Shown: piece after piece, positions 9,926-62,174 of the stretch
Layout: each line of letters begins with the position of its first letter
Numbering within the stretch: position 1 is the first letter of the stretch
Source of the DNA: Pseudalkalibacillus berkeleyi
Lineage (GTDB): Bacteria > Bacillota > Bacilli > Bacillales > Fictibacillaceae
Reading direction: 5' to 3'
Assembly: GCF_021608225.1 (NCBI RefSeq)
Contig: NZ_JAKIJS010000004.1
Span: forward strand, 1 to 62,174
Length of the DNA: 62,174 nt
Position numbers and translations under genes: made by a program
Notes under the pieces: generated by a model
What the model saw: the letters and a program-made list of their open reading frames with translations, nothing else
Database searches by the model: none
What the model was told of the DNA's origin: nothing

Positions 9926-9970
9926 GCTCTCCACAGACTAGCACAGGACGTGGTGGCTCTAAATCCAAGA
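9926..9970 (-). repeat. decayed 5' half of a Bacillaceae-1-like RNA element
   Basis: The minus strand carries AGAGCCACCACGTCCTGTG, the first hairpin half found in the complete element near 61.77 kb, then diverges. Probably a truncated or recombined copy. Confidence 0.4.
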
Positions 9971-10114
9971 TCATTTATGCAGCTCAATTTGGCCACTGTT
10001 CCCGTAGGAGTCTTGGTGTATTTCAGTAAGGTTTAAAAAGCATTCATCACTTAAAACATCCTATCGACATCCAGTTTTTAATCAAACCCCTTGATTTTAA
10101 ACGAAATTCACGAC

Positions 10115-10197
10115 ACTCCTCGAAAATGAAATTCGCATTTTCTTCGTGCGATGTAACGCTGCCGAAGCTTTCCTTGTCCTGCGGGAATAGCGAGCCA
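10115..10197 (+). repeat. 83-base dispersed repeat, copy 1
   Basis: Identical base for base to the reverse complement of 43949–44031. It contains GAAAATG…CATTTTC arms (hairpin) and a GTCCTGCGGGAATAGCGAGCC segment. It is intergenic with no open frame of its own. Related sequence extends outward at lower identity. Confidence 0.92.
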
Positions 10198-10213
10198 GGC
10201 CCATTAATGGATC

Positions 10214-10273
10214 TTCGACTAATTTCCACCACGTCCTGTGGTGAACGTCGAAGTCAGCACATCCTGTGCAAGT
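10214..10273 (+). ncRNA. Bacillaceae-1-like RNA element, complete copy
   Basis: Outer stem TTCGAC (214–219) / GTCGAA (247–252) encloses hairpin CACCAC-GTCCT-GTGGTG (227–243); a second hairpin GCAC-ATCCT-GTGC follows (257–269); numbers are offsets from 10000. Both loops match RUCCU, the hallmark described for the Bacillaceae-1 motif. The copy near 61.77 kb has the same geometry with a covarying stem pair. No promoter of its own was identified. Confidence 0.72.
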
Positions 10274-10547
10274 GCGGAAAGGGAGTGAATTTCGAAGAAA
10301 TCAAAGGTGCATCAGTTGGCCACATAGATGTGATGTCTAGCTACAGCTCCCAGTCACTTGGATCACTTCAGACTTCCTGCGGCGGCCACAGCCTCCTCGT
10401 CAGTCTTCCAGTGACCTTCGTGACTAACGGGTCGCTTCCGCTTTTCTAAAAGAAAATAAGGCATTCACCATGCCTCTGCAAGGGAATGCCGACCGGAATG
10501 GAACCTTTGTCGCTTTTAACGTTTGTCTGGCTCTATTTCTAGGTACG

Positions 10548-12959: not shown

Positions 12960-13181
<222 letters not shown>

Positions 13182-42424: not shown

Positions 42425-42484
42425 GGTTTCTTTAAAATTTAACTGAAACGCATGAAAAAACAACGGGGGAATAGGAACAAATAC

Positions 42485-42536
42485 ATGAAGTTCAACCAAT
42501 CATGTCACACCCTGTGACACCGTCGAACTCATTCAT
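42485..42536 (-). promoter_or_regulatory. large hairpin after nusG
   Basis: Inner stem TGTCACA / TGTGACA with a GGG loop, outer stem ATGAA + GTTC / GAAC + TTCAT with a three-base bulge. It begins 19 bases after the nusG stop and has no T-run. Confidence 0.55.
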
Positions 42537-42555
42537 GATCTGTGACCCCGTCGCA

Positions 42556-61113: not shown

Positions 61114-61268
61114 AATCAATTATAGGCAAACAAAGAAAAAAGGTAAATGTAAAACCATTCCTATAATGACGAACTATAGAGGAATCATTTAATGGGGGAA
61201 AGTAACTTTTTATGAGCAGGCACATGGACTTAATGTAAACTTTGAATGCTCAGTATTTCGTTTGTGCT

Positions 61269-61450
61269 GGTACCAAGCACTCATTGCAACTCTTTGGGTG
61301 CTTCGTAGAGCGGTTTTCCTGCTACCGAGCACTCATTCCACCTCTTTGAGTGCTCCGTAGAGCAATTTCTCTGCTACCGAGCACTCATTACGCCTCTTTG
61401 GGTGCTTCGTAGAACAAATTCACTTCTACCGAGCACTCATTACGCAACCT
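61269..61450. repeat. 52-base tandem repeat, about 3.5 copies
   Basis: Units phase at 61271, 61323, 61375 and 61427 (TACCGAGCACTCATT core). In each full unit CTACCGAGCACTC can pair with the later GAGTGCTCCGTAG, 12 of 13 positions in copy 2. A row of hairpins with no spacers, upstream of the mgtC-like gene. Confidence 0.88.
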
Positions 61451-61521
61451 ATTTCATATATAGATGATTTTTGTGCCAAAAATCTTTCCTTATACAAGTG
61501 TTTCATACAACTTCGTCCATA

Positions 61522-61622
61522 CTTGTGGAACTATTGCTCTCACTTGTGGAACTTGCGCTCTCATTCGTGGAACTTTCGGGATGGCTTGTGGAACTTTTGC
61601 TCTCGCTTAGGGAATTCAGTAA
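61522..61622. repeat. 21-base tandem repeat, five degenerate copies
   Basis: CTTGTGGAACT begins at 61522, 61543, 61564 (TTCGTGGAACT), 61585 and 61606 (CTTAGGGAATT), an exact 21-base period. The open frame across it is a by-product of the seven-codon period. Confidence 0.88.
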
Positions 61623-61633
61623 CTTCTTACTAC

Positions 61634-61740
61634 ATTGTTCTTCTCAACCCTCACATGCTTTGTTGTTTTTAGTCCTTTCGGACTTTAAATCTTTCAGACA
61701 CAAAAAAGAGCAGTCTCTCGACTACTCCTTTGAATTTGCC
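61634..61740 (-). repeat. second copy of the rRNA operon terminator and flank
   Basis: Matches 61971–62080 closely: hairpin GAGTAGTC / GACTGCTC with T-run (61702–61727), a GTCC…GGAC hairpin, and the flank with TCAACCCTCACATGC. Offset between copies is 337 bases. Confidence 0.88.
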
Positions 61741-61743
61741 CGG

Positions 61744-61803
61744 ACTTGCACAGGATGTGCTGACTTCGATGTTCACCACAGGACGTGGTGGCTCTTAATC
61801 GAA
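61744..61803 (-). ncRNA. Bacillaceae-1-like RNA element beside the rRNA operon
   Basis: Outer stem TTCGAT / ATCGAA, hairpin CACCAC-GTCCT-GTGGTG and hairpin GCAC-ATCCT-GTGC, loops matching RUCCU. Geometry equals the copy at 10214–10273, with a T-A pair replacing its C-G pair at the end of the outer stem. It lies inside the 3' end of a decayed 5S copy, on the same strand as the rRNA. The known motif is often next to rRNA operons. Confidence 0.8.
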
Positions 61804-61809
61804 GTTCCT

Positions 61810-61913
61810 TTTTCACAGGGGGAAGCCCCCAATTACCATTGACGCGCGAGCTTAACTTCCGTGTTCGCTTTCGGCTTGCGATGAACGGCGGATCTCTTTG
61901 TCATCTACAGTCG
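61810..61913 (-). pseudogene. decayed 5S rRNA copy
   Basis: 61814–61868 matches the intact 5S (62098–62154) with few changes; toward the 5' side similarity fades (CGGCTTGCGATGAACGG in place of the intact CGGCATGGGAACGGG). The 3' end GAGTAGAACGTCGC is replaced by the RNA element. Confidence 0.8.
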
Positions 61914-62041
61914 TGCCGTCCTCGCGTATATCATACGCTCCGGTCGTCACTCCTTTGTTTCCTCGACCTCCTTGTTCCTCTCAACCCTCACATGCTTTGC
62001 TGTTTTAAGTCCTTGCGGACTTTAAAATTCTTTTCAAACAC

Positions 62042-62067
62042 AAAAAAGAGCAGTCTCTCGACTACTC
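62042..62067 (-). terminator. rRNA operon terminator
   Basis: GAGTAGTC / GACTGCTC stem with loop GAGA and six T on the minus strand, 11 bases after the 5S 3' end. Confidence 0.93.
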
Positions 62068-62077
62068 CTTTGAATTT

Positions 62078-62174
<97 letters not shown>

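Follow-up and report, generated by a model that had tools for sequence, protein, structure and literature searches.

Bacillaceae-1, a structured motif filed in Rfam as a small RNA, is probably a non-autonomous mobile element of the REP/MITE kind that is found in Bacillales and consists of about 67 nt of palindrome-rich DNA. This reading is based on the discrete edges of the unit, its high copy number, its patchy spread, its presence or absence at given places between species, and its nesting in other repeats. The starting point was the window, the whole 62,174-nt stretch of contig NZ_JAKIJS010000004.1 of Pseudalkalibacillus berkeleyi that was analyzed, in which the preliminary description had recognized a Bacillaceae-1-type RNA inside a dead 5S gene copy.

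A search with the Rfam covariance model of the family (RF01690; gathering score, 35 bits) retrieved two matches in the window, one at 61.7 kb (61747-61814, minus strand; 69.9 bits) and one at 10.2 kb (10203-10270, plus strand; 68.1 bits), each spanning model positions 1 to 67 of 67, and the genome as a whole holds 32 copies. Both scores lie well above the gathering score, so that membership of the family, as originally proposed, is confirmed. The element had been placed at 61744 to 61803; it is indeed present there, but in minus-strand orientation, and its Rfam match extends 11 nt further, to 61814. The shared architecture is as first described, with an outer stem and two hairpins and a compensatory change in the stem between the two copies (CTTCGAT/ATCGAAG at 61.7 kb versus CTTCGAC/GTCGAAG at 10.2 kb), while the hairpins CCACCACGTCCTGTGGTG and GCACATCCTGTGC are identical in both. 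On folding, both strands of both copies score better than dinucleotide shuffles (z between -2.67 and -3.68). A model of our own, built from 21 of the 32 copies of this genome, further recovered three decayed relatives in the window, at 9.9, 13.1, and 42.4 kb (Table 1).

Table 1. Bacillaceae-1 units and neighboring features; coordinates are those of the window unless a locus is given
Feature	Position	Strand	Basis
Bacillaceae-1 unit, about 67 nt (AAGGA...CAAGT), discrete	61744..61810	-	Rfam match 61747-61814; edges from copy alignment
Outer stem, CTTCGAT (61804-61798)/ATCGAAG (61770-61764), hairpin 1 inside	61764..61804	-	Sequence, covariation, folding
Hairpin 1, loop GTCCT; reverse strand CAGGACG	61774..61790	-	Sequence and folding
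Hairpin 2, loop ATCCT; reverse strand CAGGATG	61748..61760	-	Sequence and folding
5S rRNA remnant, 5' side of unit	61811..61868	-	Comparison with relatives
5S 3' end remnant (CCGGGC) and second rrn terminator copy	61704..61743 (5S end and terminator read at 61704-61731)	-	Sequence
Intact 5S rRNA, cut at window end	62078..62174	-	Rfam search
Second full unit, gap between L17 gene and ABC-transporter (ecfA1-like) gene	10207..10273	+	Rfam match 10203-10270
Palindromic carrier repeat around second unit; arms 10102-10119 and 10281-10294	10102..10294	+	Read from sequence; relatives compared
Decayed unit fragment	9937..9982	-	19.3 bits, E 0.036
Decayed unit, hairpin 1 mostly gone, ribosomal-protein gene region	13098..13152	-	27.2 bits, E 0.00077
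Degenerate unit	42477..42549	+	30.2 bits, E 0.00018
Unit upstream of rpoA, inside ribosomal-protein operon (G029)	L260 3021-3091		Gap comparison
Unit upstream of rpoA, inside ribosomal-protein operon (G030)	L261 275-346		Gap comparison

The edges of the unit were established by alignment of 17 copies picked because they were of equal length and matched well, 13 of the 32 from P. berkeleyi and one each from its congeners G027, G028, G029, and G030. Similarity extends from AAGGA to CAAGT and is lost within a few bases at either end, beyond which the flanks are unrelated; information content rises from at most 0.5 bits outside to 1.7 to 2.0 bits over AAGGA and is down to 0.1 bits again five bases past CAAGT. 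Units with these edges are nested in several families of palindromic repeats, in the 23S-5S spacer, and in the 5S remnant. The unit does not always cap a larger palindrome: the flanking arms beat shuffles (z below -2) only in a minority, namely, 8 of 32 copies of this genome, 14 of 130 from named species, and 8 of 45 others, and the medians of flanking-arm pairing z lie near zero across the copy groups. Long palindromic carriers (GACTCC-GCGGGAAAAGC ... CCGCGGAAAGCG) occur in intergenic gaps with or without a unit at the tip (L189, L190, L195, L209, and L257).

All eight genomes of the genus carry the unit, at 20 to 101 copies per genome. Among the 34 genomes of the family, in each of which up to 107 candidates were scored, the other three genera have it in 0 of 18, 1 of 1 (4 copies), and 0 of 7 genomes. 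Across the order, a match was found in 147 of 299 genomes and none in 152, in a scan with stricter filters and about 16 candidates scored per genome, in which weak matches may be missed. Named hosts among the matches listed (at least 119 stretches) include Lentibacillus, Halobacillus, Lysinibacillus, Cytobacillus, and Sporosarcina; an intact first loop was required there, and this set hence permits no judgement of first-loop conservation. Outside Bacillales, one stretch labeled as an alphaproteobacterial metagenome-assembled genome (L088) appears among the matches listed, without a match to our own model. B. subtilis alone matched among 14 named control genomes, and eight Bacillaceae-1 structures are given for that species in PMC8208703. 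Eleven Bacillaceae-1 places in one genome, G121, all score exactly 44.6 bits, a possible sign of a recent burst.

Presence and absence between species was assessed at two gaps of one ribosomal-protein operon across all eight genomes of the genus, with L17, RpoA, and the ABC transporter identified by Pfam and with the further bordering genes presumably being ecfA1 and rpsK. Downstream of L17, units are present in P. berkeleyi and G028, at different sites, and in none of the other six genomes. In P. berkeleyi, the gap (808 nt up to the probable start of ecfA1) holds a unit in a palindromic carrier together with a decayed second unit; that of G028 (583 nt) holds a unit in another carrier at another place; that of G031 (441 nt) retains the carrier arms without a unit; and the remaining gaps, all free of the unit, measure 476 (G033), 371 (G027), 364 (G032), 290 (G029), and 288 nt (G030). 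The rpsK-rpoA gap contains a unit inside a longer insertion in G029 and G030 and none in the other six. In these polymorphic cases, the unit is accompanied by carrier sequence, and the loci compared yielded no cleanly empty site lacking only the unit; the pair L200/L205, a candidate for such a site, lacks the unit but resembles a deletion between CTGAAG repeats and was rejected. In G028, 13 of the 18 copies examined (of 37 found) share no flank with the P. berkeleyi copies searched. Two of the five that do share a flank match the P. berkeleyi copy in the 23S-5S spacer, and the other three (in the L17 gap, at a T-box locus, and downstream of 5S) are different insertions in the same region. The sharp edges of the 17 aligned copies and the insertion polymorphism at the two operon gaps both bear out the earlier guess that the element can insert.

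The 61.7-kb unit does lie within a dead 5S copy, since 5S remnants are found on both sides of it and an intact 5S gene stands at the end of the window. As read from comparison with relatives, about 13 nt of 5S have been replaced at the unit junction. Upstream of mgtC-ctsR, G027 and G032 likewise have a unit, truncated in G032, joined to this 5S fragment and the repeat upstream of it, and G030 has a similar piece at a contig start, where a link to ctsR is not visible. With this state common to G027, G032, and probably G030, a fresh insertion into 5S is ruled out, and the unit in the 5S remnant is old. In G027, the unit occupies the place of the apical hairpin of the 5S arm. In P. berkeleyi, the 5S sequence on either side matches the genome's own intact 5S and terminator, which we read as gene conversion; the 61.7-kb copy would then represent an old insertion into a 5S remnant that was partly overwritten from the adjoining operon. 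At this place, within the stretches compared, no unit lies in a 5S in G028, whose unit downstream of 5S sits in a different carrier, and the 5S-like scrap of G031 holds none.

Other repeats were observed around these 5S genes. Between an mgtC-like gene and the dead 5S lies a 52-bp tandem repeat (3.4 copies; window 61267-61443), and a 21-bp tandem repeat, ACTTGTGGAACTTTCGCTCTC, is present in 4.2 copies at window positions 61521-61608. Downstream of an rRNA operon of G028 (L264 3719-3833), there is a different array of about 20 bp, TTTTCGTAGATAATTCGTCA, in 5.7 copies. A dispersed repeat, GAGGTCGAGGAAACAAAGGAGTGACGACCGGAGCG..., is found near 5S genes (window, about 61880-61980; L004, about 270-380; L266, about 1670-1770) and has no Rfam match at the gathering score.

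These observations suggest that the unit may insert singly or with larger carriers into intergenic DNA, rRNA-operon spacers, dispersed repeats, and, in this instance, a 5S pseudogene. Its hairpins would be recognized at the DNA level, probably in one strand while this is single-stranded, like those of REP or IS200/IS605-type elements. Like these, Bacillaceae-1 is short, intergenic, palindromic, and present in many copies with ends that differ from each other, and no target-site duplication was seen at the copies examined; unlike them, it is longer and has three stems. No transposase for the unit was found. The single Y1/RAYT-like transposase gene of the genome (L032 1078-1869) is flanked by GGGTCRAGGGACCTGT-type palindromes and not by Bacillaceae-1, and was on that ground rejected as the mobilizer; it has no relatives (E up to 1e-3) in the loci searched. 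Bacterial MITEs, among which bcr1 of Bacillus cereus is named in an account of REP and MITE elements (PMC3733652), resemble the unit in being small, noncoding, intergenic, and polymorphic in insertion; the unit differs in having no long terminal inverted repeats, although some of its carriers are palindromic.

The compensatory stem change had been taken as support for a selected RNA structure, and covariation is indeed strong: in an alignment of 21 of the 32 P. berkeleyi copies, 12 of 17 pairs show a double change and 96.8% of cells are paired, and none of 500 shuffles reaches the double-change count or the pairing fraction; the count of further pair types, one of five measures, is reached by 471 of 500. 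As proof of a selected RNA, it does not stand, since G-U pairs are nearly absent and orientation is even, and a DNA palindrome fits at least equally well. The 15 core pairs of 220 distinct copies comprise 2,921 Watson-Crick, 23 G-T, 39 A-C, and 53 other cells. By way of comparison, 74 tRNAs from the same loci have 94 G-T among 1,580 stem pairs, a rough figure, as ARAGORN counts standard pairs only. With respect to genes, co-directional contexts place the AGGA strand in sense in 46 cases versus 49 for the UCCU strand (10 to 12 in P. berkeleyi and 36 to 37 elsewhere), as judged from simple open reading frame calls of at least 90 aa, by which 228 copies were placed, 133 of them in other contexts and set aside. 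Over all co-directional copies, the AGGA strand is thus not preferred as sense; subclass S leans toward it, 13 to 4. Near-perfect pairing without G-U, together with even orientation, fits a palindrome kept as DNA. The pair counts tilt to the AGGA strand, weakly so in the core (39 A-C to 23 G-T cells). Counted as organism-level events, A-C exceeds G-T by 33 to 16 in the core (P = 0.02) and by 76 to 19 over all pairs, with the bulk of the imbalance in the two outermost pairs (66 to 3 cells), and P. berkeleyi alone goes in the opposite direction (5 to 7 core cells). If one strand matters, this excess points to the AGGA strand, an outcome that a single-stranded DNA intermediate and an RNA would both produce. 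The near-perfect pairing without G-U, the even gene orientation, and the weak strand asymmetry would all follow if the hairpins are read as single-stranded DNA.

An RNA from that strand could be a two-hairpin CsrA-binding module spread as a repeat, sequestering CsrA or tagging transcripts, an explanation that we consider unlikely. Its reverse-strand loops, CAGGACG and CAGGAUG in hairpins, are of the kind found in CsrA-sequestering RNAs of the CsrB type, and E. coli CsrB carries the same loop motif; unlike those RNAs, Bacillaceae-1 has two hairpins per unit, is scattered in even orientation, and has degenerate loops in a csrA-bearing genome. The excess of A-C over G-T events also fits an RNA from the reverse strand, and csrA adjoins fliW in P. 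berkeleyi. In the order, the unit is present in 144 of 283 csrA-bearing versus 3 of 16 csrA-less genomes (Fisher P = 0.018, with kinship ignored and two scans taken as the same draw); seven of the csrA-less zeros were confirmed by a repeat scan, and six come from the order scan alone. One family (f23) lends weak support, with the unit in none of 15 csrA-less versus two of four csrA-bearing genomes, and in the csrA-less genome G084, GGA is gone from 13 of 14 loops while the stems are kept (7 of 10 copies found). However, gene orientation is even, GGA is likewise gone from 11 of 14 loops in the csrA-bearing G121 (7 of 28 copies found), 29 of 141 copies from named species have ATCGT or GTCGT as their second loop, the csrA-less G085 and G067 keep the first-loop GGA (5 of 5 and 2 of 2), and G325 and G299 have csrA and lack the unit. 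First-loop GGA is found in 10 of 10 f23 copies, 8 of 8 copies of G149, and 1 of 7 in G121. Matches to the CsrA motif on the reverse complement of Bacillaceae-1 were reported in 2014, and CsrA binding was proposed (RMfam; PMC4333381). A combined scheme, in which a transposable palindrome spread putative CsrA-binding hairpin pairs by the tens across Bacillales genomes, with mobile repeats instead of dedicated Csr small RNAs titrating the CsrA pool, and in which lineages losing csrA would mostly shed either the repeat itself or its loops with GGA, appears decidedly doubtful.

A frequent location near rRNA operons had also been claimed, and this fits the genus, where units sit about 12 nt upstream of 16S (L272 and L273), before 5S (L265), or, in L267, about 19 nt past 16S and 6 nt ahead of 5S, and where a copy in the 23S-5S spacer is common to P. 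berkeleyi and G028; in the P. berkeleyi assembly, from which rRNA operons may be absent, only 2 of 30 loci scanned (L003 and L004) have rRNA within 1.5 kb. The positions in the genus would suit a processing or protective hairpin of rRNA precursors with the dispersed copies as by-products, but we regard this as improbable, given the few rRNA-linked loci in P. berkeleyi, the variation of such sites among species, and the order genomes without a match. A true stand-alone small RNA gene family multiplied by duplication, as the Rfam label (Gene; sRNA) and the strong covariation would have it, is very improbable in view of the sharp edges, unshared flanks, even orientation, nesting in repeats, and near absence of G-U, and of a promoter scan of 61600-62174 that gave one weak site directed away from the unit.

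A 2022 study is reportedly devoted to two classes of the Bacillaceae-1 motif and lay outside the reach of our literature search; in the sources searched, as far as their accessible parts go, we did not find the motif described as mobile. The motif itself is already known, being entered in a table in PMC2864571. The copies described here match RF01690 end to end, with its outer stem enclosing a hairpin and its second hairpin; they differ from that entry, classed as a small RNA for which the UCCU strand is taken as sense, in forming a dispersed DNA repeat whose pair statistics tilt to the other strand. If the reading as a mobile DNA unit is right, the 2014 proposal of CsrA binding becomes directly testable in B. 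subtilis. A well-supported Rfam small RNA would then turn out to be a DNA palindrome that moves, and covariation, however strong, would by itself be no proof of a selected RNA; the scarcity of G-U pairs and an even gene orientation would be simple checks applicable to other repeat-like RNA motifs.
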